From Phycisphaeraceae bacterium (GTDB lineage Bacteria > Planctomycetota > Phycisphaerae > Phycisphaerales > UBA1924): a stretch of 34,080 nt of DNA. How positions within the stretch are numbered: the first letter of the stretch is position 1; each line of letters opens with the position of its first letter. Under the pieces are notes generated by a model. It was not told the origin of the DNA. It made no database searches and saw only the letters and a list, made by a program, of their open reading frames with translations. The position numbers and the translations under genes were made by a program. Below, one piece after another: positions 3,001 to 33,521 of this stretch. The stretch lies in contig JAJTHN010000045.1 of NCBI GenBank assembly GCA_021297895.1, positions 1 to 34,080 on the forward strand, in the 5' to 3' direction.

Positions 3001-3027
3001 GGGTTGCTCGAGGACGAGTTCGGGCAT
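1..3027 (-). CDS. Membrane protein with two VWA domains and an amidotransferase-like domain (partial, frameshifted)
   Basis: Starts at the ATG at 3027 and runs off the left edge, so the C-terminus is missing. Two membrane helices (about residues 10-31 and 40-58) precede a first VWA domain whose metal site is intact: DVSTS at residues 74-78, a Thr in AEGTDL and SDG in IIIFSDGNQT. The frame is broken at nine G (2034-2042). One base fewer restores an open frame to the window edge. That second part carries a GATase1-like segment (FGGGLIMSGGPASFGAGGW), a second VWA domain (VLDTSGSMG, GGGTNI, VLTDG) and another membrane helix near 190-260. Both VWA sites look functional, so divalent-metal-dependent protein binding at the membrane is likely; the GATase-like part probably has no catalysis. 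It follows the upstream gene's stop by 6 bases, so the two are likely co-transcribed. The break is either a homopolymer sequencing error or real; continued coding on both sides favours error or slippage over decay. Confidence 0.85.
2034..2042. repeat. Run of nine G interrupting the VWA gene
   Basis: Nine consecutive G on the plus strand (C on the coding strand) lie exactly where the VWA protein's reading frame changes. Upstream codons read Thr-Pro-Ala-Pro-Pro. With eight bases the next codons read Ala-Asp-Thr-Ala-Asp-Ala-Asn-Asn and the frame stays open for 2 kb; with nine the frame becomes Arg/His/Pro-rich nonsense. Confidence 0.9.
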
Positions 3028-3033
3028 GGAAGA

Positions 3034-5973
3034 TCAGCGGGGCGCGGAGGAGGGCGCGGCGGGGGCGGGGGATGCGGGCGCGGGGGTGGAGGCGGGGGGG
3101 GGCGTTGCGGCGGGAGGTGTTGCGGGTGCTGCGGGTGTGGCGGGGGTTGTCGCGGGTGCGAGATCCTGCCGGAGGCGGTCGAAGTATCGTCGCAGGAGGG
3201 GCCTTTGGCGCGCGGGGACGGACTGGTCTTCGATCGCGCGCTGGGCGGTGTCGGCCGCGTCGCGGATGGCTTGGCGTGCGGCGGGAGCGGGGGCGGTACG
3301 GTCGCCGGCGGGGCCGAGCCACTCGCTGATGATGCGTTGTGAGGAATCGGGCGCGGGGGCGGTGCGGGCGTCGATGGTGGTGGTGCGGGCGTTGTCGAGT
3401 TTGGTGGCGGAGTCGTTCAGTCGCGGGCCGCGGGCGGAGGTGCCGGGTGTTGATGAGCCGGGGCGCGGCGTGGCGGAGGGATCGCCCGGGGCGGGCGCGG
3501 CGGCGCGGTCGGGGTTGGCGGCGTCGGGCGGGGTGGAGTTGGTCGGATCGGGAAGCGAGGCGGTGGGGTCCGGAGAGGACGGGATTGATGAGGGGGGCGT
3601 GAGTGATTCATCGGGCGAGCGGCCGGCACGCTCGGCGGCTTGCCGCGCGAGGTCGGCGAGTTCGCGCTGTTCTTCGGGCGTGGCGTTGTTCCAGAGGTCT
3701 TCGGCGGCTTGGCGGAGGCGATCGCTCTGCTGCTGGCGCTCGGTGGCGCGCTGCGGGGCGCGGGAGAGGTCGTCGAGAGAGTCGCGGAGGCGCTCGATGG
3801 CGGAGCGCGCCGAGGTTGGTGGCGCGCCGTCGGGAGCGGCGCGGTCGCCGGGCGAGTTGGAGGGCTGCTGGTTGGGCTGGGTGGAGTCCGATGCGCGGGG
3901 TTGGCCCGCAGGTTGTTCGGTGGGTTCGTTGGGTTGCGCGGGGATGGAGGGTCGGCCCTGTTGCTGGCCTTGCTGTTGGCCCTGTTGCTGGCCCTGCTGT
4001 TGGCCGGGTGTTGCGGGCTGGTTGGGAGATGGCGTCGGTTGCCGCGGCGACGTGGACTGGCCTTGCTGGGAGACGGGGACCGAGCTGGGGGTGGGGTTGG
4101 GCGTGGTCGTGGGCGCTGGTTGGTCGCCGGGGGCGGGTTGATCGGAGGGCGAAGGTTGATCGCTGGGCGCGGAGCCGGGCGCAGCGGGCGGCTGGCCGGG
4201 TTGGTCGGCGGGTTGCGGGGTTTGTTGCTGGCCGCTCTGTTGGCCCTGCTGTTGGCCAGTCTGCTGGTTCTGTTGCTGGTTCTGCTGTTGGCCTTGTTGG
4301 CGTTCGCCCGGTTGCTGGGTGGATTGTGGATTCTGGGGCGATGGCTCGCGCCCGGGCGCAGGTTGGGTTTGGGGCTGAGTTTGCGGTTGGGGCTGTGCGG
4401 GCGGCGGTGCGGATTCGCGTGCTGCTTCGCGCAGCGTTTCGGCGAGGTTCTGTTGCTGCTGGCGTGCGGCGTTGTCGGCCTGGCGCTCGCGCTGCTCGCG
4501 GGCGGCGGCGTCGGCGAGTTCCGCCGCGCGCTCGGGGGGGATACCGGCGTCGCGGAGGCGCTCCTCGATCTGACGCGGGTCGGTCGACTGCGGCGACTGC
4601 GGATCGATCGGGGGTTGCTCGCGGGCGGCAAGTTCCTGATTGACGCGGTCGGTCGCGGGGGTGGGCTGCTGGGTGGGCGGCTGGGTGGGCTCGGGGCTTG
4701 GCGGCGTGTCGGCTCGCTGGCCGTCGCGTGAGGGGGGCCGGCGAGTCGGATCGTTTGCTGGGGGCGTGTCGGGCCTTGACGGCGGCGCGGGGGGTGACGG
4801 CTGGTCGAGTTGTTGAGCGAGGTCTTCCAACGCGCGGGCGGCTTGGGCTCGCTCATCGGGGGACATGGAGGGGAGTTGGCGGGCGAGTTCGTCGGCGGCG
4901 CGGGCTGCGGCGGCGAGGTCGCCGCGGGTGATGGCTTCGCGGAGATTGTCGGCGGGGGATTCGGGGGTGGTGTCGCCAGCCGCGGCGGTTGCTTCATCGA
5001 GGGATGAGGAGGGCGAGCCGGGCGTGGGGCCGGGGGCCGAGCCGGTGCTGCGTGCGGCACGCGCGGGGGTCTGCTCGCGTGCCGCGGCCTGTTCGCTCAG
5101 GCGACGCGCGAGGGCGTCGGCGGCATCGCGGTCGCGCTGGGCCTGGCGGGAGAGTTCACCGGCGAGCGATTCGACGGCCTTGGCCGAGCGCGTGCGGGAC
5201 TCATCGGGTGAGATCTGGCCGGAGCGGAGTTCGGACTCGATGCGAGAGAGTTCTGAGAGCGCGCTGGCGGAGCCGGCATCGGCGGTCTGGGCGGTACGCT
5301 CGTTCTGCGAGGCGCTCTGGGCCTGGAGTTGCTCGCGGAGTTGGCGGACGCTTTCGGCGGCTCGGGCGGCATCGGCGGCGCGTTGCTCGGGGGTGACTCG
5401 GATCGGGCGAGGCGAGTCGGTGATGCCGAGCGTTGCCAGAAGAGAGTTTGCGGGCTGACGGAGGATGCCGACGGGCGTGAGCAGAAGGACGGATGCGCCG
5501 GCGGCGAGCGCAGCCAGAGCGGACCCGAAGCGGAGGGCGGTGCTTCGGCTGGTCATCGGGAACGCGGCGGCGATGCGCGCGGGGGTGATCGCACGGATCG
5601 CATCGTCGGCCTCGGCGCGGGCGAAGCGCTCCATGGCGGTGCTGGCCCCCACTTGCAACGCGATGATGAGTTGGTCGTTGAGGTTCAGGCGTGCATCGGC
5701 GATTGATGCCGCGCGGATGAGGCCGGGACGGCCGCGCCAGGAGCGTGCGGCGAGCACACCGGCGATCATCGACAGCAGGACCGGCGGCGCAAGGAGGATG
5801 GCGAGCGATGTCGGCGTGGCGGCCAGAGGGGCGACGTTGAGTGCGTGCAGCGAAACGCTGGAGATGCCGGAGATGGCGGACCCGAGCGCGGCCCAGCGCG
5901 CGGCGGCGCTGAGGGCGGAGGCACGACGGAGTCGGGAACGGATCGACGCGGCGTGGCGCTCACTCGCGGACAT
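3034..5973 (-). CDS. Large Gln/Pro/Arg-rich membrane protein with coiled-coil tracts (DUF4175-like architecture)
   Basis: 979 residues starting at the ATG at 5973. The N-terminus has hydrophobic segments at about residues 20-75 and a further helix near 148-170. Between them is ADARLNLNDQLIIALQ, which resembles the segment found in alphaproteobacterial DUF4175 membrane proteins. The rest is hydrophilic: Ala/Arg/Glu-rich helical stretches with many 'AxELARQL' type heptads, separated by Pro/Gln/Ser-rich low-complexity linkers including GQQQ tandem repeats. No enzyme motif is visible. It sits directly upstream of the double-VWA gene (6-base gap) and downstream of the kinase. I infer an envelope-associated scaffold acting with the VWA protein. 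The DUF4175 comparison is from architecture only, and the long disordered part would align poorly. Confidence 0.75.
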   Translation of the reverse strand: MSASERHAASIRSRLRRASALSAAARWAALGSAISGISSVSLHALNVAPLAATPTSLAILLAPPVLLSMIAGVLAARSWRGRPGLIRAASIADARLNLNDQLIIALQVGASTAMERFARAEADDAIRAITPARIAAAFPMTSRSTALRFGSALAALAAGASVLLLTPVGILRQPANSLLATLGITDSPRPIRVTPEQRAADAARAAESVRQLREQLQAQSASQNERTAQTADAGSASALSELSRIESELRSGQISPDESRTRSAKAVESLAGELSRQAQRDRDAADALARRLSEQAAAREQTPARAARSTGSAPGPTPGSPSSSLDEATAAAGDTTPESPADNLREAITRGDLAAAARAADELARQLPSMSPDERAQAARALEDLAQQLDQPSPPAPPSRPDTPPANDPTRRPPSRDGQRADTPPSPEPTQPPTQQPTPATDRVNQELAAREQPPIDPQSPQSTDPRQIEERLRDAGIPPERAAELADAAAREQRERQADNAARQQQQNLAETLREAARESAPPPAQPQPQTQPQTQPAPGREPSPQNPQSTQQPGERQQGQQQNQQQNQQTGQQQGQQSGQQQTPQPADQPGQPPAAPGSAPSDQPSPSDQPAPGDQPAPTTTPNPTPSSVPVSQQGQSTSPRQPTPSPNQPATPGQQQGQQQGQQQGQQQGRPSIPAQPNEPTEQPAGQPRASDSTQPNQQPSNSPGDRAAPDGAPPTSARSAIERLRDSLDDLSRAPQRATERQQQSDRLRQAAEDLWNNATPEEQRELADLARQAAERAGRSPDESLTPPSSIPSSPDPTASLPDPTNSTPPDAANPDRAAAPAPGDPSATPRPGSSTPGTSARGPRLNDSATKLDNARTTTIDARTAPAPDSSQRIISEWLGPAGDRTAPAPAARQAIRDAADTAQRAIEDQSVPARQRPLLRRYFDRLRQDLAPATTPATPAAPATPPAATPPPASTPAPASPAPAAPSSAPR
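3958..4005. repeat. Four tandem 12-base units encoding Gly-Gln-Gln-Gln
   Basis: Units at 3958-3969, 3970-3981, 3982-3993 and 3994-4005 differ only at synonymous positions of Gln/Gly codons and encode four GQQQ repeats in the minus-strand membrane protein. A second Gln-rich tract lies at about 4228-4310. The units preserve frame, so copy number could change without breaking the gene. Confidence 0.9.
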
Positions 5974-6030
5974 GCATGACTGTACGACGGCTCGGGGGTG
6001 TGTGATCGGTGCGGAGCGTCGGCACGGCGA

Positions 6031-15757: not shown

Positions 15758-17047
15758 ATGTTGACGATGATCAAGCCCAAGCGCCAGTATCACGTTCACC
15801 CCCCATTGCTGCTGTACTGCGGCGTGTCGCTGCTGGTGGCGGTCGGCGCGTTTCATGCCCAGAACAACCTGCTGTTCTGGGTATTCGGGCTGTCGATGGG
15901 CATGGTGATCGTGTCGGGCATCATCAGCGGGTGGATGCTCATGTCGGTGTCGGTGCGCCGCGAAGCGATCGACGCGACGCAGGTCGGCGAGGCGATGCGC
16001 GTGCGTTACGAGGTGCGGAACACATCACGATTCATCGCGCTGCACTGCCTGACGATCCGCGAGTTGATCGACGAAACGCCCGAGGCTCGCGGCGGGGGGT
16101 CGCGGACCGGGGCTGGCGCGATGGCCGTTCAGCGGGGGAGGCTGGAGACGGCGGCGACGGCGTTTGTGCTGCATGTCGGGCCGGGGCAGGTTGTTCGTGT
16201 GGAGGCGGAGGGTCTTGCGGTCGAGCGAGGGGTGGTGCGGAGCAAGGGGTACATGGTGACCTCGTCGTTCCCGTTCGGGATCATCCGCAAAGCGCTGCGG
16301 TGGGACATTGCGGGTGACGGGATCGTGCGTCCGGCGGCCGAGGCGGTAGCGCTGGTTCCGCCGCGACGGGGGGAGGTCAAGCGTCAGCAGGATGCGCGGT
16401 CGAGTAACGACCCGGGGCCGGGGGACGACTTTCTTTCGCTGCGCGAGTATCGCGAGGGCGACCCACCAAGGGCGATCGCGTGGCGGCTGTCAGCCCGGCA
16501 CGACCAGTTGCGTGTTCGGTTGTCGAGCCAAGAGGCGACGGGCCAACGGTGGATCATGCTCCGGCTGGAGGCGATGTCCGGCGCGGCGGGGCGAGCGGAG
16601 GATCGGGCGGGTGAGTTGCGGCGCAAGCGGGGCGAGCGCGCGATCTCGATGGCGGCGGGACTGCTGACGCGGTCGATCGATGATGGCGTGCGCGTGGGTC
16701 TGGTGATTGTGGGTACGGGGCTGAGCATGCCGCCGCGCGATGGGCCGGCGCATCTGCACGCGATGCTCAACGCGCTGGCCATGCAGCGGCTGGACGATCC
16801 GCGGCTTGGCGGGCCGGAAGATCGGCGGACGATGGGCCCGCGAAGCGGCGATCACGTGATGGTTGTGCACGCGGGAATGGTGGATTCTTCGGTGTGGCCG
16901 GGCGCGGTGCACCTGGCGGCGGGGCGAGAGTTGGCGGACGGCGAGGAGGATTCGGGCGGCGGCTCCGGGACCGCGGCGACCGGGGATACCGGGCACAAGC
17001 CGATGCAGCGAATCCGTCGCCTTTGGCGGAAGGCGGTGGCCTCATGA
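15758..17047 (+). CDS. DUF58 domain protein
   Basis: 429 residues. Two adjacent membrane helices occupy about residues 14-55. The DUF58 core is clear at residues about 214-255: DPGPGDDFLSLREYREGDPP, then RAIAWRLSARHDQLRVR. The C-terminal half resembles a degenerate VWA-like fold. DUF58 proteins usually occur with a MoxR ATPase and a transglutaminase in envelope-remodelling operons. Here the transglutaminase follows at once (ATGA overlap, start 17044 and stop 17045-17047), but no MoxR gene is in the window; the neighbour upstream is the thioredoxin-like gene. Confidence 0.92.
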   Translation: MLTMIKPKRQYHVHPPLLLYCGVSLLVAVGAFHAQNNLLFWVFGLSMGMVIVSGIISGWMLMSVSVRREAIDATQVGEAMRVRYEVRNTSRFIALHCLTIRELIDETPEARGGGSRTGAGAMAVQRGRLETAATAFVLHVGPGQVVRVEAEGLAVERGVVRSKGYMVTSSFPFGIIRKALRWDIAGDGIVRPAAEAVALVPPRRGEVKRQQDARSSNDPGPGDDFLSLREYREGDPPRAIAWRLSARHDQLRVRLSSQEATGQRWIMLRLEAMSGAAGRAEDRAGELRRKRGERAISMAAGLLTRSIDDGVRVGLVIVGTGLSMPPRDGPAHLHAMLNALAMQRLDDPRLGGPEDRRTMGPRSGDHVMVVHAGMVDSSVWPGAVHLAAGRELADGEEDSGGGSGTAATGDTGHKPMQRIRRLWRKAVAS

Positions 17048-19272
17048 TCCGTCTTGCGCGGCTGCGCCTGCTGATCCTCGGGAGCGCGGTGACGGCTGCG
17101 CTGTGCTTTGTCGCGGCGGATGTGAGGCCGGGGCTGGGGCTGGTGGTGGCCGCGGCCGCGGTGCTGTCGCACGTGCTGACACTGATGAAGCCGGTACGGG
17201 CGTTGCCGTCGCTCGGGCTTAACGCGCTGGTGCTGGCCTCGGCGGGGTATGCGCTGCTGCAAGCGGCGCAGCAGCGGACGGAGCTGATCACGGTCGTGGC
17301 GGAGTTTCTGACGCTCGTGCTGCTGATCCGGCTGCAGGATCGGCGACGGCTGCGTGATGAGGCACAGACGATTGCGCTGTCGTTGTTCGTTGTCATCGGG
17401 GCGATCCTGACGAGCAACTCGCTGGCGCTGGGCCTGCTGCTGATGATCTACACGCCGCTGATCGTGACGGCGATTGTGTACTTTCAGGCTCACGCGGGGC
17501 ATGCGCAGGCGCTGCGGGCATCCGGGGCGCTCGGGCGCGATGCACCGGAGCCGGCGACGTTCGGCGTTGCAGGGGCGGCGATCTGGAGCCTTCGGCGCAC
17601 GGCGTTTGTGGCGATCGTGCTCTCGTTGCTGCTGGGCGTGATCGCGTTTGTGGTCACGCCGCGGAACCTGATTCCGAGCGTTTCGAGCACATGGGGCGAC
17701 ATCGGCGCGACCAGCCCGAGCGGGTTCAGCGACACGATCAGGCTCGGGGCCTCGGGGGTGATCTCGCAGTCGCCGCAGAGCGTGATGGAGGTGGTGCTGC
17801 GTGATGGCGATGGGCGGAACATCTCCGGCGAGTGGTTGACGCTGTACTTGCGCGGCGCGGTGCTGACGGACTATGACCGCGACACGGGCTCGTGGGAGCG
17901 GCGCGATCGGTCGGAGGATCGAAACGACACGGATGACCGCCCGGCGTCTGCGGGGACGGTGGTGGTGTTTCGACCGGAGCCGGAGGGCACGACGCGTGTG
18001 CGGCAGGAAGTGACGGTGCGCCGAGTCCGTGACGGCACGGCGCCGCTGTTTTCGATGTTCGAGCCCGCGACGATCATGGGCGATGAGCCGGGACGGTTCA
18101 TCCGGAGCAGGTCCGACGGGATCGTCTATCGCCAGGGCGCGGCGGGCCCGTTTCGCTATGTCGTCAGCAGCGTTGTCAACTCGACGATGAGCAACCCGCG
18201 GCAGGTTCCGCCAGCGATCGACCCGGGGCCGCGGATCAGGGAGTTGGTTGACGGGCTGCTGGACCGCGCGGGCGTGTCCCGGAATCCACTCGAGCGGGAT
18301 GCGCCCGCGAATCGGCGTGCGATCAACGAGTTTCGAGCGTTTCTGCGCGAGGGATTCTCGTACACGCTGGAGATGACCTCGCCGATGGAGGACGAGGACC
18401 CGATCGAGATGTTCCTGTTCCGCACGAAGGCGGGGCACTGCGAGTACTTCGCATCGGCGCTGGCGATCATGTGCAGGACGGCGGGGATCGATGCGAGGGT
18501 GGTGACGGGCTACGCGGCGGGGGAGTTCAACCCGGTGGTTGGACACTTTGTTGTGCGGGAGTCGGATGCGCACGCGTGGGTGGAGGCTCGCGTGGTGCCG
18601 ACGCGATGGGAGACGATCGACCCGACGCCCGAGGGCAGTGTGCCGCATGTGGCGCGACGCCGAACGGGGCTGCTGGCGACGCTTCGGCAGTTTTACGATG
18701 CGCTGGAGTTCACGTGGGTGACGTCGGTCGTGTCGTTCGATCAGTCTCGCGTGGGGACGGCATCTCGGAGCGAGAGCGGCCGCGGGCCGGTGCTGGAGAT
18801 GCTCAGCAGCGTTGGGCAGACTTTGCGGGGGCTGGTGCCTGAGACGGGGCTGGGGCGATGGGCGGCGCTGGTGCTGATCGCGGGTGCGGGCGTGTTCGGC
18901 GCGGTGGTGATCTCGCGCGGGCTGGGCGGCGTGATGCCGACGCTGATGCGGGCCATACGCGGGGTGCTTTCGCGGATGACAGGACGCCCGACAACCGGCA
19001 CCGACCCGGCGACGCGGTTCTATGGCGAGGCACTGGCGGCGCTGGCTCGGGCGGGACACGAGAAGGGCGAAGGGGTTGCGCCGATGCACTTTGCGCGGTC
19101 GATTTCGCACGGCGATGCGAGGGTCCGGGAATTGGTGATCGAGATTGTCGAGCGGTACTACCGCGTGCGGTTCGGCGGGGTCGCGATGGATAGTGCGGGG
19201 CGCGCGTGGGCAGTGTCGGCGGTGGCGGAGCTTCGCTGGCGGCTACAGGGGGCGCGGGATCGGGTCGCGTGA
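17044..19272 (+). CDS. Membrane transglutaminase-like protein (DUF3488 / TgpA type, DUF4129 C-terminus)
   Basis: 742 residues from the ATG at 17044, chosen because it overlaps the DUF58 stop in ATGA and begins the hydrophobic region; the longer upstream frame has no signal. Several N-terminal helices occupy about residues 1-200. The transglutaminase triad is complete: Cys466 in KAGHCEYFAS, His510 in DAHAWVEA and Asp526 in ETIDPTP. A helix near 610-635 leads to a DUF4129-like tail containing FYGEALAALARAGHEK. By analogy with TgpA the catalytic domain faces outside the cytoplasm. Substrate unknown; in Pseudomonas the TgpA family is essential. Confidence 0.94.
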   Translation: MIRLARLRLLILGSAVTAALCFVAADVRPGLGLVVAAAAVLSHVLTLMKPVRALPSLGLNALVLASAGYALLQAAQQRTELITVVAEFLTLVLLIRLQDRRRLRDEAQTIALSLFVVIGAILTSNSLALGLLLMIYTPLIVTAIVYFQAHAGHAQALRASGALGRDAPEPATFGVAGAAIWSLRRTAFVAIVLSLLLGVIAFVVTPRNLIPSVSSTWGDIGATSPSGFSDTIRLGASGVISQSPQSVMEVVLRDGDGRNISGEWLTLYLRGAVLTDYDRDTGSWERRDRSEDRNDTDDRPASAGTVVVFRPEPEGTTRVRQEVTVRRVRDGTAPLFSMFEPATIMGDEPGRFIRSRSDGIVYRQGAAGPFRYVVSSVVNSTMSNPRQVPPAIDPGPRIRELVDGLLDRAGVSRNPLERDAPANRRAINEFRAFLREGFSYTLEMTSPMEDEDPIEMFLFRTKAGHCEYFASALAIMCRTAGIDARVVTGYAAGEFNPVVGHFVVRESDAHAWVEARVVPTRWETIDPTPEGSVPHVARRRTGLLATLRQFYDALEFTWVTSVVSFDQSRVGTASRSESGRGPVLEMLSSVGQTLRGLVPETGLGRWAALVLIAGAGVFGAVVISRGLGGVMPTLMRAIRGVLSRMTGRPTTGTDPATRFYGEALAALARAGHEKGEGVAPMHFARSISHGDARVRELVIEIVERYYRVRFGGVAMDSAGRAWAVSAVAELRWRLQGARDRVA

Positions 19273-23758: not shown

Positions 23759-26700
23759 ATGGCCTGGTTCGGACGCAAGAGCAGCACCGGTGCGACCAAG
23801 CCCGCTCAAGCGGCGGCCCCCCACTCCTCGCACGCTGGCGGAGACGCGAACGGCGCGGCGGTGGTGTCCGGATTCGGCCCGGAGCATGACGCGGCGATCA
23901 CGAGCATCGGATCGGAGATGCTGCGTCGCGCTCGCGGGCACAAGGCGGGAGTGTTCTCATCGCAGTTCTACAGCGATGCGCTGATGGAATGGTCGATGAA
24001 GGACCAGGCGTTCAAGGTGCAGTTGTTCCGGTTTGTCGACACGTTTCCGGTGCTGAGGAACACCGAGGACACGTACGACCATCTGGAGGACTATCTGGCG
24101 CAGCCGGGCGTGACGACGCCGACGGTGATCGCCGCGGCGATGAAGGCCGGCAAACTGGCCAAGGGACTCGCCGTTTCGCAGATCAGCAAGCAGATCACGG
24201 GGATGGCGAGCAAGTTCATCGCGGGAGCAGACGCCGCGGGCGCGATGAAGAACCTGCGGGCGTTGTGGGACGAAGGAATCGCCTTCAGTGTCGACCTGCT
24301 GGGCGAAGCGTGCGTGAGCGATGCGGAGGCGGATGCGTACCGCGACAAGTACCTTGATCTGATCAACAACCTGCCGGGGAGCGTGGCGTCGTGGCCGGCG
24401 AGCGAGCGGCTGGAGCGTGACCACCTCGGGGCGATTCCGCGGACGAACGTGAGCGTGAAGATTAGTTCGCTCAGCGCGCGGTGCGATCCGATCGACGCCG
24501 AGGGTGCTCGCAGGGATCTGATGAAGCGGCTGCGGCCCATCCTCGAGGCGGCCAAGGCGCGGGGCGTGTTCGTGAACTTTGACATGGAGCAGTTCGCGTT
24601 CAAGGACTTCACGCTGGACCTGTTCATGCGCTGCTGCGAAGAGGTGGACTTTCATGCGGGGCTGGCGATGCAGGCCTATTTGCGCAGCGGTGAAAGCGAC
24701 GCGCGACGGATCTGCGAGTGGAGCGTGCGGACGGGTCGCGTGGTGACGGTGCGGCTGGTCAAGGGTGCGTACTGGGATTACGAGGTGATCAACGCCGAGC
24801 AGCGCGGATGGCCCGTGCCGGTGTGGCCCACCAAGCGCGAGACGGACGCGTGCTTCGAACGGATGGCAAGGATCTTCGTGGACTCATGCCCGAGGACGGC
24901 GGGGGCCGGGGGTGTGAAGCTGGCGCTCGGGTCGCACAATGTGCGATCGATCGCGGCAACGGTTGCTTACAGCCGGAGCAAAGGTCTGCCGGACAGCGCG
25001 ATCGAGCTGCAGATGCTTCACGGCATGGCGGATCAACTCAAGCACGCCGCGGCGGAAATGGGGCTGCGGATGCGCGAGTACGTGCCCGTGGGGCAGATGA
25101 TTCCGGGCATGGCGTATCTCGTGCGGCGGCTGCTGGAGAACACCAGCAACGAGAGCTGGCTCAAGAGCGGATTCCTCGACAACGCCGACGAGGGCAAACT
25201 GCTGGCCAGCCCTCACGGTGAGCCGGCCCATGAGCACAAGACCACCGGGGACGCCAACACGATCAAGACCAAGGAGCCGACGGCGGCGAATCTGGAGCGA
25301 GCGCCGGAGCGGCACAGGCTCACGCCCAGCGTGAAGATCGGCGGAAGCGTCGTCCGTCCGTTCTGCAACGAGGCGTTTCGGGACTTCGCGGATGCCGCAC
25401 AGCACAAGGCGTTCGCCTCGGCGGTTTCATCGGCGAAGGTTCCGACGGTGAGGAGCGACACGAGCCTCGAGCAGGCCCGCGCGATGGTTGCGCGGGCGCA
25501 CGCCGCGTTTGACGCCTGGCGCGATGTCGCCCCGGGAACGCGGGCGCAGGCGCTGCTCACGGCGGCGGAAGTGATGCGTGCGCGGCGAGACGAACTGGCC
25601 GCGATGATGATCCGCGAGGCGGGAAAGACGTGGCGTGAGGCCGATGCGGACGTCTGCGAGGCGATCGACTTCTGCGAGTACTACGCGAGGCTGAGCGTCG
25701 GGCTTTTTGAGCGCGAGCGGATCGGTCGGTACATCGGCGAGCTCGATGAACAGTTCTACCAGCCGCGGGGTGTGTGCGTGGTCATTTCGCCATGGAACTT
25801 TCCGCTGGCGATCTGCTGCGGCATGACGGTGGCGGCGCTGGTGACCGGCAACACGGTGATCGTCAAGCCCGCCGAGCAGACACCGGGGATCGCGCGGGTC
25901 ATGACGGACATTCTGCACGAGGCGATCAACCGTGCACTGGCGAACGTGAGCGGCGCACCGAAGGCAGTTGACGTGCTGCACTTCTGCCCCGCGCCGGGCG
26001 AGACAACGGGCGCGATGCTGGTGCGCGATGATCGCGTCGCGGTGATCGCGTTCACGGGCTCGAGAGATGTCGGCTGCGACATTCTGCACGCGGCCGCGCC
26101 GCGCTCACCGTTCGCCGGCGATCGCGCGGCGTTCGAGGCATGGGCGGGCGGCAGCGATGCGCAGGTGAAGAAGGTCATCTGCGAAATGGGCGGAAAGAAC
26201 GCGGTGATCGTCGACACCTCGGGCGACCCTGACGAAACGGTGCTGGGCGTCCGTCACAGCGCGTTCGGATTCCAGGGCCAGAAGTGCTCCGCGTGCTCGC
26301 GATTGATCGTTGTCGATCCGGATGGGCCGAACGGACCGGCGATCACGCACCTGCGGCAGCGACTGGTGGAGGCGACGCGAGTGCTGACCATCGGCGACCC
26401 GTCACTGCCCGGGACGGATATCGGCCCGGTGATCGACGCGGACGCGAAGGCGAAGATCTCGGGCTTCATCTCCCGGGCGAAGACATCGGGGCTGCCGGGG
26501 TTTGAGTTGCCGGTTCCGGCGGGGCTGGAAGCCGCCACGGGGCGGCACTACGTGGGCCCGGCGATCTTCTGGAACGTGCCGGAGACGCACGAACTGGCCC
26601 GGGCGGAGATCTTCGGGCCGGTGCTGGCGATCCTGCACGCGCCGACTTTTGCTGAGGCGCTGCGGATCGCCAACGACCAGCCGTACAAGCTGACGGGCGG

Positions 26701-26935
26701 CGTGTTCACTCGCAAGCCATCGCACATCGAGCTTGCGCGACGGGCGTTCCGTGTCGGAAACCTCTACATCAACCGCGGCATCACCGGTGCTCTCGTGGCC
26801 AGACAGCCATTCGGCGGGTTCGGCATGTCGGGCGTGGGCTCGAAGGCCGGCGGCAAGGACTACTTGCTGCAGTTTGTCGAGCCGCGGGCGGTGTGCGAGA
26901 ACACGATGCGTCGCGGGTTCGCGCCGGAACTCTGA
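23759..26935 (+). CDS. putA: Bifunctional proline dehydrogenase / delta-1-pyrroline-5-carboxylate dehydrogenase (PutA)
   Basis: 1058 residues, ATG at 23759 with AAGGGGAAG ahead of it. The proline dehydrogenase half (about 110-460) has VSVKISSLSARCDP, RLVKGAYWDYE and a barrel end near LGSHNVRSIA. The aldehyde dehydrogenase half (about 560-1040) has GVCVVISPWNFPLAI, VIAFTGSRDVG, the catalytic Glu809 in ICEMGGKN and the nucleophile Cys843 in GQKCSACSR. It oxidises proline to glutamate in two steps. There is no ribbon-helix-helix domain at the N-terminus, so it is unlikely to repress its own promoter, as the short PutA form does not. Confidence 0.96.
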   Translation: MAWFGRKSSTGATKPAQAAAPHSSHAGGDANGAAVVSGFGPEHDAAITSIGSEMLRRARGHKAGVFSSQFYSDALMEWSMKDQAFKVQLFRFVDTFPVLRNTEDTYDHLEDYLAQPGVTTPTVIAAAMKAGKLAKGLAVSQISKQITGMASKFIAGADAAGAMKNLRALWDEGIAFSVDLLGEACVSDAEADAYRDKYLDLINNLPGSVASWPASERLERDHLGAIPRTNVSVKISSLSARCDPIDAEGARRDLMKRLRPILEAAKARGVFVNFDMEQFAFKDFTLDLFMRCCEEVDFHAGLAMQAYLRSGESDARRICEWSVRTGRVVTVRLVKGAYWDYEVINAEQRGWPVPVWPTKRETDACFERMARIFVDSCPRTAGAGGVKLALGSHNVRSIAATVAYSRSKGLPDSAIELQMLHGMADQLKHAAAEMGLRMREYVPVGQMIPGMAYLVRRLLENTSNESWLKSGFLDNADEGKLLASPHGEPAHEHKTTGDANTIKTKEPTAANLERAPERHRLTPSVKIGGSVVRPFCNEAFRDFADAAQHKAFASAVSSAKVPTVRSDTSLEQARAMVARAHAAFDAWRDVAPGTRAQALLTAAEVMRARRDELAAMMIREAGKTWREADADVCEAIDFCEYYARLSVGLFERERIGRYIGELDEQFYQPRGVCVVISPWNFPLAICCGMTVAALVTGNTVIVKPAEQTPGIARVMTDILHEAINRALANVSGAPKAVDVLHFCPAPGETTGAMLVRDDRVAVIAFTGSRDVGCDILHAAAPRSPFAGDRAAFEAWAGGSDAQVKKVICEMGGKNAVIVDTSGDPDETVLGVRHSAFGFQGQKCSACSRLIVVDPDGPNGPAITHLRQRLVEATRVLTIGDPSLPGTDIGPVIDADAKAKISGFISRAKTSGLPGFELPVPAGLEAATGRHYVGPAIFWNVPETHELARAEIFGPVLAILHAPTFAEALRIANDQPYKLTGGVFTRKPSHIELARRAFRVGNLYINRGITGALVARQPFGGFGMSGVGSKAGGKDYLLQFVEPRAVCENTMRRGFAPEL

Positions 26936-27043
26936 GCGAGCGTCGCGGCACTTTCGTGGGGCCACGCGACGGACGGCGTGCCGTATCGAGCGTGCCGGGC
27001 CGGGCCATCGAACCGCCGCGCGCCGAGGCTCGTACCCTCGTGC

Positions 27044-28567
27044 ATGCCGATCAAGCCATTGCTGGGTGCGCTGCTTGTTGCGATTCTGCTGGGCGTTCTG
27101 ACGCTGGGCGTCGTGCTCGTGCCGAGATGGATGAGCCGCACGGTGGAGCGGCTGTTCGTCCTTCCCGGTGAGCGACTGGTGGACATGGACATCGGGCAGG
27201 TCGAGGAGATCGTCGTCGGCGATGCGAGCGGTGCATCTCGCTGCGTGCGCTCGGCGGACCTGGCTTCCTGGAGTCTGCTTCCCGGCGAGCCGAGCGTGCC
27301 GGGCGCGGCGAGCGCCGGGGCCACGGAACTGGATCCGGAACTGGTCCGCGTTGCGATTCGGCGAATCTTTGAGACGCGTGCATCAGCCCAGCCGACGAAC
27401 GAAGCGCTCCGCAGCGCTTCGGAGGGCGTGCGCCAGCGCGCAGCCGCTCTGGAGGGGGCTTTGCGAGGTGACGGGGCGTTTGTGCCCGTGTTCGGCGAAC
27501 GGACGCTGAGCGTGCGGCTGCGAACGAGCTCGGGCGTTGCGCGCGTGCTGCACCTATCGCCCACGACACTGGGCGGCCAGTCGCTCGTGCTGGTCTCATC
27601 GCCAGGTGGCGAAGGCAGCGCGGCGGATTGGCGGTTGGCGGTGATTAGCGAGAACCTTTACGCGGAGATGGATGAACGCGGCCCGATGGCGTGGCGGCTG
27701 CGCACGCCGTGGACGCGACTGGCAACCCGGCTTACAAGCGTGCGGATCATCGGGGAAAGCGGCGCGAGCGTGGTGCTGGGCCGCAGCGGCGCGGCGTGGT
27801 CCGTCACGGAACCGGTCAGGGCTCCGGCGAACCCGGAGGCGATCAGCGCGTTGCTCTCATCGCTGGCGAACGTACGGATCGCGACGTTTATCGATGACCC
27901 AGCGGCACGGGCCGAGGCGGAGAGCTCGCTCGCTTCGCCGAGGGCGAGGGTGGCCGGTGAGGCGGACGGCGCGACGCTGGAGTTGCTCATCGGCCGCGCG
28001 GCGGACCCGGCGGCGCGAACGGTCTTTGCGCGGCTCGATCAGCGGCCCGCGGCGACGATCGATGCGGAGACGCTCAGCCGAATCGCGGCCGAGCCGACTT
28101 CGTACATCAGCCCGATGATCGCGTCGCTGGAACAGGCCGACATTCACGGTCTGACGATCACAGGACATGAAGGCGACAAGAACCTGCTGAACCTGGCGCG
28201 ATCCGCCAGCGGCTGGGATGAGATCCGCGAGGATGGCCAGCGAGTGGCGCAGGCCGAGGAGCGGGCGCGTGAGGTGCAGTTGATGCTGAACTTTCTGACG
28301 CGAGCTCCGGCGATGTCGATCCGAATCACGACTCCCGAGCCCGATGCGACGCCGATGGGCAGGGTTGTGCTGCGCGATGCTCGCGGCGGCGTTGTGCAGA
28401 CGGCGCGAGTCCTGCGGGGTCAGCCCGCGATGATCTGGGTCGAGGTAGATGGCACATTCCGCGCGGTCAGTTCGCTGCCCGACCTGCTCCAGCGATTGCT
28501 CGCACAGCCCGCGCTGAATGTCGGCACGCCCGCAGCGCCGGCGACACCGGTCGAGCCGCAGAAGTAG
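27044..28567 (+). CDS. Membrane-anchored DUF4340-like protein
   Basis: 507 residues. ATG at 27044 begins a signal-anchor (PIKPLLGALLVAILLGVLTL). The remainder is soluble and repeats an all-beta, Ser/Ala/Arg-rich design: 'LRTPWTRLATRLTSVRI...LGRSGAAWSVTEP' at about 222-255 resembles the repeating strand motif of DUF4340. DUF4340 proteins often belong to Gld/ABC-type gliding or export systems, but no such gene is nearby, so the role is unknown. It follows putA on the same strand and converges on purD with a 16-base gap. The family assignment is tentative. Confidence 0.7.
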   Translation: MPIKPLLGALLVAILLGVLTLGVVLVPRWMSRTVERLFVLPGERLVDMDIGQVEEIVVGDASGASRCVRSADLASWSLLPGEPSVPGAASAGATELDPELVRVAIRRIFETRASAQPTNEALRSASEGVRQRAAALEGALRGDGAFVPVFGERTLSVRLRTSSGVARVLHLSPTTLGGQSLVLVSSPGGEGSAADWRLAVISENLYAEMDERGPMAWRLRTPWTRLATRLTSVRIIGESGASVVLGRSGAAWSVTEPVRAPANPEAISALLSSLANVRIATFIDDPAARAEAESSLASPRARVAGEADGATLELLIGRAADPAARTVFARLDQRPAATIDAETLSRIAAEPTSYISPMIASLEQADIHGLTITGHEGDKNLLNLARSASGWDEIREDGQRVAQAEERAREVQLMLNFLTRAPAMSIRITTPEPDATPMGRVVLRDARGGVVQTARVLRGQPAMIWVEVDGTFRAVSSLPDLLQRLLAQPALNVGTPAAPATPVEPQK

Positions 28568-28583: not shown

Positions 28584-30083
28584 TCAGCCGACGATGTCGG
28601 TCCCGATGTCGCGGCGAACCTGCTTGCCCTCAAAGCGGATCATGTCGGCGGCGGCGTACGCACGTTCGCGGGCTTGCTCGAGCGTGTCGCCTCGGGCCAC
28701 GACGTTGAGCACGCGTCCGCCGGCGGTGACCAGACGACCGGTGTCATCGGTGCGGGTGCCGGCGTGGAAGATCTGCACGCCTTCGATCTTCGCGGCGTTT
28801 TCGACGCCGTCGATCACGAGTCCGGCTCGCGGCGAATCGGGGTATCCGGGCGCGGCGAGGACGACGCAGACACTCACGCCGGAGTCCATGCCGATCTCGA
28901 TCTCATCCAGCGAAGCACCGAGGCCCGCGCCCGCGCCGCCGCTGCAGGCCAGCAGAGCGGCAAGGAGGTTGCCGCGGAATCGCGACATGAGGACCTGACA
29001 TTCGGGGTCGCCGAATCGGCAGTTGAATTCGAGAACTTTGGGACCGGCGGGGGTCAGCATGATGCCTGCATAAAGCACGCCGCGGTACTCGATGCCATCG
29101 CGACGGAGCGCATCGACGGTGGGAACGAGGACTTCACGTTCGATTCGCTCCATTGAGCGGGCGTCGATCGCGCGCGTCGGGCAGAGCGCTCCCATGCCGC
29201 CGGTGTTGGGGCCCTTGGCGCCGTCGAGCAGTCGCTTGTGATCCTGGCAGGGATCGAGCACGAAAATGGTCCGGCCATCGGTGAGCGCCAGCACGGAGAC
29301 CTCGCGTCCCTTGAGGCGTTCCTCGATGAGCACGGTCCGGCCCGCGTCGCCGAACTCCTGCTTGATCATGATCCGATCGATCGCCTCGAGGCCTTCCTCA
29401 AGGCTGGCCGGAAGGATGACGCCTTTGCCCTTTGCCAGACCCGCGGCCTTGATGACCGGACCGTCGTTGCGGGAGCGGAGGTACTCCTTCGCGGCGCTGG
29501 GATCGGTGAAGACTCTCGCCTCGGCGGTGGGGATCGAGGCGGAGCGCATGAGCTGCTTTGCGAAGGCTTTGTCCGCCTCGAGCATGGCCGCGGCCTTGAG
29601 CGGACCGAAGACGCTGGGGACGATGCCACCCAGACCGCCGCCGCCGGTGAGTGGGCCGGCGCGAAGCGCTCGCTCGAGAGCGGCGGTATCCATGTGCGCA
29701 CCGCGCGCAGCGGCGGAGAGAACCGCGCCGGGTGCGATCTCGCGCACGCCCAGCAGCGAATCGGCGAGGCCCATCGCCAGCGGATCCTCCGGACCGATGA
29801 CCACCAGACCGATGCGATGCTCCTTGCAGAAACGCTCGATCGGGAACGTGTCCTTCGGGTTGAACCGGCCGGTGGCACCCCAGCAGTCGGCAGGCTTGCA
29901 GAGCGCCCGGAGGCCGGGGTTCGAGGGTGAGTCGGTGTAGAGCTCGCCAAGCCCATCGCTACGACGCAACGCCGCGGCCAGAGCGTGCTCGCGGCCGCCC
30001 GATCCGATGAGAAGCACGTTGATCGTCGTGTTCGATGCACGGACGGCGGATTCGGCGGGCGTGGGCGGAGTCATGGGGGCCAT
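28584..30083 (-). CDS. purD: Phosphoribosylamine-glycine ligase, with an internal insertion
   Basis: 499 residues from the ATG at 30083 (a second in-frame ATG is at 30074). It joins 5-phosphoribosylamine and glycine in purine synthesis. The N-terminal nucleotide fold is LLIGSGGREHALA (about 24-36); VVIGPEDPLAMGLAD then VFGPLKAAAMLEADKAFAKQ are conserved; the ATP-grasp core has GPVIKAAGLAKGKGVI and GPNTGGMGALCP. Typical PurD is about 430 residues. The excess is mostly one insertion of about 40 residues (about 113-156, Ala/Arg/Gly-rich) between the two conserved blocks GPEDPLAMGLAD and VFGP. The gene is divergent from the polyketide operon. Confidence 0.95.
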   Translation of the reverse strand: MAPMTPPTPAESAVRASNTTINVLLIGSGGREHALAAALRRSDGLGELYTDSPSNPGLRALCKPADCWGATGRFNPKDTFPIERFCKEHRIGLVVIGPEDPLAMGLADSLLGVREIAPGAVLSAAARGAHMDTAALERALRAGPLTGGGGLGGIVPSVFGPLKAAAMLEADKAFAKQLMRSASIPTAEARVFTDPSAAKEYLRSRNDGPVIKAAGLAKGKGVILPASLEEGLEAIDRIMIKQEFGDAGRTVLIEERLKGREVSVLALTDGRTIFVLDPCQDHKRLLDGAKGPNTGGMGALCPTRAIDARSMERIEREVLVPTVDALRRDGIEYRGVLYAGIMLTPAGPKVLEFNCRFGDPECQVLMSRFRGNLLAALLACSGGAGAGLGASLDEIEIGMDSGVSVCVVLAAPGYPDSPRAGLVIDGVENAAKIEGVQIFHAGTRTDDTGRLVTAGGRVLNVVARGDTLEQARERAYAAADMIRFEGKQVRRDIGTDIVG

Positions 30084-30177: not shown

Positions 30178-30900
30178 ATGTGTATGGACCAGCGCGTGCT
30201 CACGCCGGAACTCATGGACGACGCGGCGATCGACCCGCGCGAGCATCGGCGTGCGCTGCGAGGGCTCGCTCGGCTCAACCGGCTGAGCAGGGCACACGTG
30301 AGCGTCGCCCGCGCGGTCGCCGACCTGCTGCGAGAACGGAGCTTGCCCGCTTCGGATGCGATCCTGCTGGATCTCGCGGCCGGGGGCGGGGACCTGCTGC
30401 TTGGTGTTCGCGATGTCATCGGCCGATGCGCATGCAGGGGAGCAGCGGATGTCGCGGCGGATATCAGTCCGACCGCTCTGGAGGTCGCACAAGGGCACGC
30501 GAGGGCGCGTGGGCACACGGTGCGGACGCTCCGGGCGGACGTTCTCGCCGCTCCACTGCCGATTGACGACTCGGCCGTGGATGTCGGTGTGTGCTCCCTG
30601 TTTCTGCATCATCTCATGCCCGTGGATGTGGTTCGTGTCCTCGCGGAACTCGCCCGCGTTTCTCGCGTTGGCGTCGTGGTATCGGACCTGGCACGATCGC
30701 GGCTGGGGCTCGCGATGGCGTTCTGCGCCGGCCGCATCGTGACAAGATCTCGCGTCGTGCATGTCGATAGCATCAAGTCGGTTCGTGCCGCGTTTACGCG
30801 CGAGGAACTCGCGGAGTTCGCGTTCCGGGCGGGCATGAAGGACGCCATCATCCGTGAGGTCTGGCCCGAGCGGCTGCTGCTGACGTGGAGGCGAGCATGA
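30178..30900 (+). CDS. SAM-dependent methyltransferase of the type III PKS operon
   Basis: 240 residues. Class I methyltransferase motif I is LLDLAAGGGDL (63-73), followed by a DISPTALEVAQ motif II-like segment and SAVDVGVCSLFLHH (motif IV region). Start at 30178; an ATG two codons later (30184) is possible. The gene ends in ATGA, overlapping the next. In characterised type III PKS operons (for example srsABC of Streptomyces) a methyltransferase and a flavin monooxygenase tailor the phenolic lipid; by analogy this one would methylate the resorcinol or pyrone product. The homology is not specific enough to prove the substrate. Confidence 0.88.
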   Translation: MCMDQRVLTPELMDDAAIDPREHRRALRGLARLNRLSRAHVSVARAVADLLRERSLPASDAILLDLAAGGGDLLLGVRDVIGRCACRGAADVAADISPTALEVAQGHARARGHTVRTLRADVLAAPLPIDDSAVDVGVCSLFLHHLMPVDVVRVLAELARVSRVGVVVSDLARSRLGLAMAFCAGRIVTRSRVVHVDSIKSVRAAFTREELAEFAFRAGMKDAIIREVWPERLLLTWRRA

Positions 30901-32168
30901 GCGCCGGCGAGCAGGTTGATGTTCTGGTCATCGGCGCGGGAGTCGCCGGCGCGTGCGCAGCGATCGGTGCTGCTCGCACGCTCGGCACACGTGGCCGCGT
31001 GCTGCTGGTTGACAGATCGGCCTGGCCTCGCGAGAAGGTCTGCGGCTGCTGCCTCGGGGCACGCGGGGTCGCCGCGATCGAGCAGCTCGGCGTGAATCTG
31101 GCCTCTGGCCCGGCTCGCGGCGTATCGCTGAAACACGTTCGGATCACGTCACGCGGAGGAGCAACGTTTGAGCTGCCGCACGCGGGCGGAAGGGTGCTGT
31201 CACGGAGCATGCTCGACGCAGCGCTCGTCGATGCCGCGGTTCGGAGCGGAGCGACGTTCCGAGACAAGTGTTCGGCGAGCGTCGTTGAGCGACGGCGTGG
31301 ATACTGGCGCGTGATGCTTGGCGGCGAGTGCATCGGCGCTCGGAGCGTCATCGTCGCCGATGGCCTCGGCGGGCACGCGCTCGAGGGTCTCCCCGCACTG
31401 GTGCCGACGGTCGCACGCGGATCGTTCATGGGCATCGGTGCAAAGCTCTCGCCATCAAACGTCGACGCGGCGGTGGTGCCCGATGGGACCGTGCTGCTTG
31501 TGCATGGCGTTGGCGGGTATGTTGGATTCGTGCGGATGCCCGATGGGACGATCGACCTCGCGGCGGCAATCGACCCGAGGCGAGCGCGTGCTGCGGGAGG
31601 GCCGATCATGCTGCTGCGTCGCATCATCGAGCAGGCACGCGTGGCCGTGAGGCTCGACGAAAACGTGCGGCTCACGGGAACGCCCCTGCTGACACGACGA
31701 AGACGGATGCTGAGCATGCCCGGATTGATCATCGCGGGCGACTCTGCGGGTTACGTCGAACCTTTCACGGGTGAGGGCATGACGTGGGCGGCGCTTTCGG
31801 GAGCGCAGGCGGGCTCGCTTGCCGCCGCCGCGGGGCGTGAGGGGGAGTCTGCGATCGATCGGGTTGGCGACGCCTGGGCATCATGGCACGATGCCAGTAT
31901 CGGGCCGATGCAAACGACTTGCAGGACGATCCGTGTTCTGCTGCGCACTCCGGGATTGCTGCGCGGAGTCGCGACCGCGGCGACGCGCTGCCGAGCACTG
32001 CGGCGAGCCCTGGCGCAGCTGAGCACCCGCATCACCGGCCGCGACACAGCCTGCAGAGGGCCGCTCGATTCTCGGCTCGCGCCTGCGAGCCTCGTGGCGG
32101 AGCCGGAGCCGGGGGCCGCGATGGCAGCAGTGAGTCATGGCGAGCGAATGGGCGAGGTGAAGCCATGA
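30897..32168 (+). CDS. FAD-dependent oxidoreductase (geranylgeranyl reductase / UbiH-like) of the type III PKS operon
   Basis: 423 residues. The ATG at 30897 overlaps the previous stop (ATGA), with GGAGG at 30887-30891. FAD-binding GAGVAGAC lies at residues 13-20, the GGR-like REKVCGCC at 45-52, and the second flavin motif GDSAGYVEPFTGEGM at about 281-295. The family includes phenol hydroxylases, squalene-type monooxygenases and isoprenoid reductases. Position between the methyltransferase and the polyketide synthase suggests oxidation or reduction of the polyketide product. The C-terminal ~40 residues after the fold are low in conservation. Confidence 0.9.
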   Translation: MSAGEQVDVLVIGAGVAGACAAIGAARTLGTRGRVLLVDRSAWPREKVCGCCLGARGVAAIEQLGVNLASGPARGVSLKHVRITSRGGATFELPHAGGRVLSRSMLDAALVDAAVRSGATFRDKCSASVVERRRGYWRVMLGGECIGARSVIVADGLGGHALEGLPALVPTVARGSFMGIGAKLSPSNVDAAVVPDGTVLLVHGVGGYVGFVRMPDGTIDLAAAIDPRRARAAGGPIMLLRRIIEQARVAVRLDENVRLTGTPLLTRRRRMLSMPGLIIAGDSAGYVEPFTGEGMTWAALSGAQAGSLAAAAGREGESAIDRVGDAWASWHDASIGPMQTTCRTIRVLLRTPGLLRGVATAATRCRALRRALAQLSTRITGRDTACRGPLDSRLAPASLVAEPEPGAAMAAVSHGERMGEVKP

Positions 32169-33301
32169 TCGCACCCGCCGCGGCGATTCTCGGCATGGGG
32201 TTGGCGACGCCGACATACTCGGCGCGGCAGCCGCAGACCACGGCGCTCGCGCTCGCGGCGACGCTCGAAGACCCTTCGCAAGCGGCGCTTGTCGCAGGGC
32301 TCTACTCGCGGGCGGGCGTGGACCGCAGGGGCAGCGTCTTGCTGCGCAGCGAGACCGGCGATGGACACGGCCCGGATCAGTCGGTGTTTCCGAGTTCGAC
32401 GGGCGAACATTGGCCGACAACGGCCGATCGGATGAGAGTCTTCGATCAGCACGCGACAGGCCTGGCGCTCGAGGCCGCGCGACGCGCGCTGGCCGATGCG
32501 GGTGTGCTCCCGGGGCAGATCACGGACCTGTTGACGGTCAGTTGCACAGGATTGAGTTCGCCGGGGGTTGATGTGTCGTTGATGACCGGCCTGCCGATGG
32601 CGGCGGATGTGCGGCGAGTGAACATCGGCTTCATGGGCTGCCACGGCGCGATCGTCGCGCTGCGCACCGCCGCGGATCTGGTGGCGAGCGGGATGAGCAG
32701 CGGTGGCCGTGAGCGGCGCGTGCTGGTGGTATGTACCGAACTCTGCTCGCTGCATCTCCAGCGGACATCGCGCGTGGATCAGCATGTCTCCAACGCGCTG
32801 TTCGCCGACGGCTGCGCGGCGGCGGTCATCGGGGCAGCCACGCCGAGGAATGCTCTGCGGATCGTCGGCTCCTCGTCGATGCTCTTTGCCGGGAGCGAGG
32901 CGGCGATGGGGTGGCACATCGGTGATCATGGCTTCTCGATGTCACTCGATCGCAGCGTGCCCGCGCTGCTGGAACGGAGCCTCGAGGCGTGGATCTGGCC
33001 ATGGCTGCGATCGCACCTCGGCAACGCGGCGGGCGCGGATGATGTTCGCTGGGCGATCCATCCGGGAGGCCCGCGCGTGCTCGATGCCGTGGCACAATCG
33101 CTCGGTCTCGATGACGCGCACGTGCGAGAGAGCCGAGCGGTGCTGCGCGATCATGGAAACATGTCATCCCCCACTGTCCTCTTCATCGCGAACCGGCACC
33201 GAGCACGCCGAGATGACCGCCGTCCGATCGCGCTGCTGGCCTTCGGCCCCGGGCTCTCCGGCGAAGCGACGCTATTGGCGGTCGGGGCGGATGAGGTGTG
33301 A
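32165..33301 (+). CDS. Type III polyketide synthase (chalcone synthase-like; likely alkylresorcinol or alkylpyrone synthase)
   Basis: 378 residues. The catalytic triad of the family is visible: Cys159 in GFMGCHGA, His299 in WAIHPGGPR and Asn332 in DHGNMSS. These positions are close to the classic Cys164/His303/Asn336 of plant chalcone synthase. The ATG overlaps the preceding stop. Bacterial relatives use long-chain acyl starters with malonyl-CoA to make alkylresorcinols or alkylpyrones that insert in membranes. Starter and ring type cannot be read from the sequence. It is the last gene of a three-gene, twice-overlapping operon. Confidence 0.93.
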   Translation: MIAPAAAILGMGLATPTYSARQPQTTALALAATLEDPSQAALVAGLYSRAGVDRRGSVLLRSETGDGHGPDQSVFPSSTGEHWPTTADRMRVFDQHATGLALEAARRALADAGVLPGQITDLLTVSCTGLSSPGVDVSLMTGLPMAADVRRVNIGFMGCHGAIVALRTAADLVASGMSSGGRERRVLVVCTELCSLHLQRTSRVDQHVSNALFADGCAAAVIGAATPRNALRIVGSSSMLFAGSEAAMGWHIGDHGFSMSLDRSVPALLERSLEAWIWPWLRSHLGNAAGADDVRWAIHPGGPRVLDAVAQSLGLDDAHVRESRAVLRDHGNMSSPTVLFIANRHRARRDDRRPIALLAFGPGLSGEATLLAVGADEV

Positions 33302-33430: not shown

Positions 33431-33441
33431 GAAGTCCAGTT

Positions 33442-33515
<74 letters not shown>

Positions 33516-33521
33516 TTACCC

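Follow-up and report, generated by a model that had tools for sequence, protein, structure and literature searches.

What does a three-gene operon ending in a type III polyketide synthase (PKS) make in a member of the Phycisphaerales, and is its gene order unusual? The operon lies at positions 30,178–33,301 of a stretch of 34,080 nucleotides (the window) from contig JAJTHN010000045.1 of Phycisphaeraceae bacterium (assembly GCA_021297895.1). All three genes are on the + strand, in the order methyltransferase (MT), flavin adenine dinucleotide (FAD)-dependent flavoprotein, type III PKS. The operon is real, intact and of the ordinary hidABC type. We consider it highly probable that it is a hierridin-like alkylresorcinol operon, its product being predicted from homology. 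Its features are given below in window coordinates.

30178–30900, + strand: hidA-like class I S-adenosylmethionine (SAM)-dependent MT, PRK06202-like, 240 amino acids (aa) (Pfam, NCBIfam, structure model)
30897–32168, + strand: hidB-like FAD-dependent oxidoreductase with a geranylgeranyl-reductase / flavin-monooxygenase fold, 423 aa (Pfam, NCBIfam, model)
32165–33301, + strand: hidC-like type III PKS (putative alkylresorcinol synthase), 378 aa (Pfam, alignments, profiles)
30897–30900, + strand: start-stop overlap ATGA of the MT and FAD genes (read in the sequence)
32165–32168, + strand: start-stop overlap ATGA of the FAD and PKS genes (read in the sequence)
32639–32641, + strand: codon of catalytic Cys159 of the PKS (alignments)
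32912–32914, + strand: codon of Trp250 of the PKS, aligned with PKS18 Leu266 and proposed as the equivalent of ArsB Trp281 (resorcinol-type cyclisation)
32939–32941, + strand: codon of Met259 of the PKS, proposed gatekeeper, Met in the HidC clade (alignment)
33059–33061, + strand: codon of catalytic His299 of the PKS (alignments)
33158–33160, + strand: codon of catalytic Asn332 of the PKS (alignments)

An earlier note on this DNA had described three genes linked by two ATGA overlaps; its coordinates are exact and both junctions do read ATGA. Such overlaps point to translational coupling across the operon. ATG 30184 is a possible alternative start for the MT. The FAD and PKS genes were taken to start at ATG 30897 and ATG 32165, and the list of open reading frames (ORFs) opens each further upstream (GTG 30885 and ATG 31883, respectively). 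The source genome (3.48 Mb, 84 contigs) contains one match per operon gene.

The same note had found the gene order unusual, as the synthase comes last. This does not hold, because PKS-last is the common hidABC order of cyanobacteria and planctomycetes. Among 96 type III PKS genes from 131 planctomycete genomes, 58 stand last in an operon of MT, FAD oxidoreductase and PKS, as in the cyanobacterial hidABC (Milke et al. 2024, PMC10896814). Two arrangements are described for 47 hierridin-like clusters, of which hidA>hidB>hidC is the more conserved (Larsen et al. 2021, PMC8086630). Our own census gave the same picture. A contig scan yielded at least 585 confirmed relatives, of which the best 80 were kept, and partner genes were counted if they scored above 80 bits, on the same strand and within about 4.5 kb of the PKS. 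The order MT-FAD-PKS was found in 67 of these 80 named relatives, two of them with an extra FAD-like gene upstream. The remaining relatives had FAD-PKS (four), a PKS without partners within about 4.5 kb (eight) or PKS-MT-FAD (one). In three of the four FAD-PKS loci the sequence stops about 1.2 kb or less upstream of the PKS, which is not so in the fourth (L053). In a second set of 40 relative genomes besides the source genome, 22 had a match and 19 of these showed MT-FAD-PKS; in two others (G009, G036) only FAD-PKS was visible in the short stretch available, and one (G033) had a weak match alone. As the order is the family norm, nothing in the operon is structurally new.

Some loci of the census deserve separate mention. 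In a Myxococcales metagenome-assembled genome (MAG; L097), the PKS comes first, with the MT and FAD genes behind it. An additional weak FAD-dependent oxidoreductase match (134–136 bits) lies about 1.4 kb upstream of the operon in Aphanothece (L062) and Synechococcus (L068). The PKS places L007 and L013 had one stop inside the matched stretch under the first search; they were not treated as broken because the later profile shows none.

The PKS matches Chal_sti_synt_N (5e-22) and Chal_sti_synt_C (2e-21) in Pfam, and it has the full Cys-His-Asn triad that the earlier note had read. Cys159, His299 and Asn332 are invariant in a 16-sequence alignment, and a wider alignment with 133 rows (duplicate places included; the tree below used 115 distinct PKSs) shows all three in every row. 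The position of Trp250 is Trp in 131 of the 133 rows, and that of Met259 is Met in 132. We take Met259 to stand in the column of chalcone synthase (CHS) Phe265, going by the CHS motif. Members of the HidC clade have Met at this gatekeeper position (PMC8086630). In the long-chain synthases of Azotobacter vinelandii, ArsB W281 versus ArsC G284 decides between resorcinol and pyrone, and ArsC Met293 moves with the residue of G284; an aromatic side chain at this switch is favourable to resorcinols (PMC6274091). ArsB and ArsC resemble the window PKS in the long-chain acyl starter and the tetraketide, ArsB having the resorcinol-type Trp switch (PMC6274091), but their genes share the ars operon with that of the fatty acid synthase ArsA and are not part of an MT-FAD-PKS operon. 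We took Trp250 for an ArsB-type aromatic wall because the spacing of nine residues between Trp250 and Met259 is also that between ArsC G284 and M293. Trp250 points to a resorcinol, not a pyrone.

hidABC of Cyanobium sp. LEGE 06113 (hierridin B/C) is like the window operon in its three gene types, their order, the PKS in last place and the gatekeeper Met. This cluster was reportedly described for that strain, with hierridin B/C, by Costa and colleagues in 2019. It may differ in that the double O-methylation by HidA may not apply to the window MT. On the cyanobacterial side, identity to an uncultured Cyanobium locus (L055, not HidABC itself) is 45% for the PKS, 35% for the FAD protein and 43% for the MT. 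The planctomycetal operon of Gimesia maris and Rhodopirellula baltica shares phylum, gene order and families with ours (PMC10896814), and the window PKS is 41–44% identical to those of Gimesia (L036, L093) and Rhodopirellula rubra (L086) loci. For all three genes, the best NCBIfam family is identical in the window, Gimesia (L036) and Cyanobium (L055).

Profiles built from 66 loci, leaving out the window and L031, recover the window MT, FAD and PKS proteins at 236, 312 and 406 bits, and profiles of 19 cyanobacterial loci alone do so at 211, 253 and 366 bits. A second, distinct type III PKS occurs in two genomes (G034, G023; loci L022, L024). It is about 30% identical and has Tyr at the position of Trp250, and both genomes also have an operon-type PKS. 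Used as outgroup and control only, these second-type PKSs score about 200 bits when searched with the leave-out profile of the PKS.

The MT was confirmed as class I, as the earlier note had it. It matches Methyltransf_25 and Methyltransf_11 (3e-11 and 9e-11) as well as Ubie_methyltran, and its structure model (mean predicted local distance difference test score, pLDDT, 94.4) has the class I MT fold. In Foldseek, yeast Coq5 comes first by E-value. Ranked by Z, the phenol C-methyltransferases CouO (Z 21.5, root-mean-square deviation (rmsd) 2.8, 213 aligned) and NovO (Z 21.2, rmsd 2.9, 213 aligned) are tied with the S-methyltransferases TmtA (Z 21.5, rmsd 3.4, 205 aligned) and GtmA, and other MT types come next. 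Sequence identity of the MT overlaps between groups (Gimesia 36% and 42%, Cyanobium 43% and 37%). Neither the fold matches nor these identities favour C- over O-methylation.

The flavoprotein matches DAO (3e-8) and FAD_binding_3 (6e-7) in Pfam. Its best NCBIfam match is the geranylgeranyl-reductase superfamily at 89 bits, under the cut-off of 158.8, and the UbiH/UbiF match is only 18 bits. The model (mean pLDDT 89.8, residues 398–422 poorly modelled) resembles a Cytophaga flavoprotein, geranylgeranyl-reductase-like proteins, flavin monooxygenases and halogenases. These fold matches do not favour hydroxylation over reduction. FAD-dependent halogenases carry a WxWxIP motif. Looked for in an alignment of 24 flavoproteins, this motif was absent in the window protein and in two others checked, and we rejected a halogenase, although halogenases are among the many fold matches.

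The most likely product is a methylated, perhaps also ring-hydroxylated, long-chain alkylresorcinol. In the pathway that we propose, the HidC-like PKS would load a C16 or C18 fatty acyl thioester on Cys159 and add three malonyl units. The tetraketide would then close by C2-C7 aldol condensation with loss of CO2, giving 5-pentadecyl- or 5-heptadecyl-resorcinol. This step is modelled on homologues that have experimental support. In C. glutamicum, expression of the PKS from G. maris led to pentadecyl-, heptadecyl- and heptadecenyl-resorcinol, of that from R. baltica to heptadecyl-resorcinol, and of that from S. maiorica to pentadecyl- and heptadecyl-resorcinol (PMC10896814). The class I MT would put one or two methyls on the ring, either on carbon, as is probable for G. 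maris, or on oxygen, the type of methylation seen in hierridin B. Co-expressing the MT and FAD genes of G. maris with the PKS resulted in a single added methyl, probably at a carbon (PMC10896814). In the weakest step, the flavoprotein would hydroxylate the ring to give a hydroquinone-type phenolic lipid. The end product would likely be a membrane-soluble methylated alkylresorcinol or alkylhydroquinone. The tailored lipid that the earlier note had proposed stands, most likely as an alkylresorcinol derivative. Its suggestion of an undescribed product class was too strong, since the class is described for homologues and at most the final decoration would be new. The first reading is corrected accordingly: it had the anatomy and the lipid class right, was mistaken in calling the order odd, and overstated the novelty of the product class.

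Several points weigh against the hidABC-type assignment. We infer the equivalence of Trp250 and ArsB W281 from spacing, not from a direct alignment with ArsB and ArsC. The MT scores 157.6 bits with PRK06202 (NCBIfam), for which the cut-off is 243. Identity to two Gimesia and two Cyanobium loci is 41–45% for the PKS, 32–35% for the FAD protein and 36–43% for the MT, lower than the 48–55% given for planctomycetal versus cyanobacterial proteins (PMC10896814). A similar PKS is not enough to establish the operon type, because with the leave-out profile a locus with no partners found (L099, 384 bits) and the PKS-first locus L097 (370 bits) score near the 406 bits of the window. Several deeper nodes of the PKS tree, which includes no characterised enzyme, have support 0. 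The PKSs of P. limnophila and A. californiensis are not encoded in an operon of this kind, and neither yielded a product in the published assay (PMC10896814).

Among the matches listed, the nearest named PKS is that of a Phycisphaeraceae MAG (L031), 59% identical to the window PKS, versus 39–49% for the remaining operon-type PKSs in the comparison. The window and L031 pair with support 1.0 in the tree of 115 PKSs, within a four-member group with L032 and L039 (0.948), beyond which the next nodes have support 0. The two may represent a diverged branch whose MT and FAD proteins decorate the alkylresorcinol in a way unlike both hierridin B and the Gimesia product, for example to an undescribed C-methylated alkylhydroquinone or quinone. 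We regard this as a tentative possibility, somewhat unlikely on present evidence.

A related proposal, compatible with a hidABC-type operon, is that the product is an alkyl-benzoquinone or -hydroquinone that carries electrons in respiration, and not an allelochemical for secretion or a constituent of the membrane. The geranylgeranyl-reductase/flavin-monooxygenase fold of the flavoprotein would suit this role, and so would the first Foldseek match of the MT, Coq5 being a quinone-pathway methyltransferase; alkylquinones as electron carriers in another bacterium are cited in PMC10896814. The MT fold match is unspecific, however, since many MTs score alike, and no link to respiration was found in the genome, where none was looked for. 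The patchy occurrence of the PKS also fits an accessory trait better. We surveyed the order by PKS profile search in 269 genomes with a completeness of at least 90%: 211 had a match at E ≤ 0.001, many of these weak matches being probably FabH-like, 127 had one at E 4.9e-48 or better (at least 163 bits), and 102 reached at least 342 bits. We judge the electron-carrier role improbable.

Still less probable, and in our view a poor candidate, is an alkylpyrone synthase of the PKS18/ArsC kind, with the MT and flavoprotein decorating a pyrone. Type III PKSs are promiscuous, and PKS18, which makes long-chain alkylpyrones, is the best solved-structure match of the PKS profile (277 bits); the single window sequence has Steely1 as its best solved-structure match (160 bits). 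At the cyclisation switch, alkylpyrone synthases carry a residue that is small or not aromatic (ArsC Gly284, PKS18 Leu266). In the profile alignment, the column of PKS18 Leu266 is occupied by Trp250 of the window protein, at the same distance from the HidC-clade gatekeeper Met259 as in ArsC. The operon-type homologues tested made resorcinols (PMC10896814).

An srs-type operon (Streptomyces griseus) with its gene order shuffled has next to no probability: srsABC is alike in its general functions, a PKS, a methyltransferase and a flavoprotein hydroxylase yielding methylated, hydroxylated alkylresorcinols, but SrsB belongs to the isoprenylcysteine carboxyl methyltransferase family (PMC6669644) whereas the window MT is class I by domains and fold, the order and homology agree with hidABC, and srs-type clusters, to which the earlier note had looked for comparison, are for this reason the wrong yardstick.

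The surroundings of the operon are as follows. Upstream, purD is divergent on the - strand, in a stretch (28587–30083) with all three GARS domains, and a tRNA-Met gene lies 3' of the operon (33441–33516). A DUF4340 protein (PF14238) is encoded at 26978–28567, between purD and a long ORF (23759–26935) that we named proline dehydrogenase / pyrroline-5-carboxylate dehydrogenase-like from its translation. At 15758–19272, overlapping ORFs encode a DUF58 protein and, after it, a TgpA_N/transglutaminase-core/DUF4129 protein, which is a usual pairing. G+C content is 72–74% in window positions 1–6000 versus about 65–69% over the remaining contig, and four long ORFs tested in positions 1–6000 had no Pfam match.

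Among the best 80 of at least 585 relatives, the three-gene order was found in named loci of Synechococcus, Cyanobium and many Planctomycetota. It also occurs in two Halomonadaceae (L037, L070) and in MAGs labelled Elusimicrobia (L042), Gemmatimonadetes (L084), Acidobacteria (L043) and Hydrogenedentota (L058), labels that may be wrong. These loci outside Planctomycetota and Cyanobacteria suggest a horizontal spread wider than the two published phyla. Type III PKS genes are described as less abundant in the class Phycisphaerae (PMC10896814). Among the papers listed in our literature search, none was on an experimentally tested Phycisphaerae operon. To our knowledge, none of the six strains tested in the planctomycete study belongs to this class. 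The role of the flavoprotein, the site of ring methylation and the purpose of the lipid are questions already in print for the planctomycetal operon (PMC10896814). The window operon adds a probable example from the Phycisphaerales to a type whose experimental study, in the papers cited here, concerns one cyanobacterium and a few other planctomycetes.

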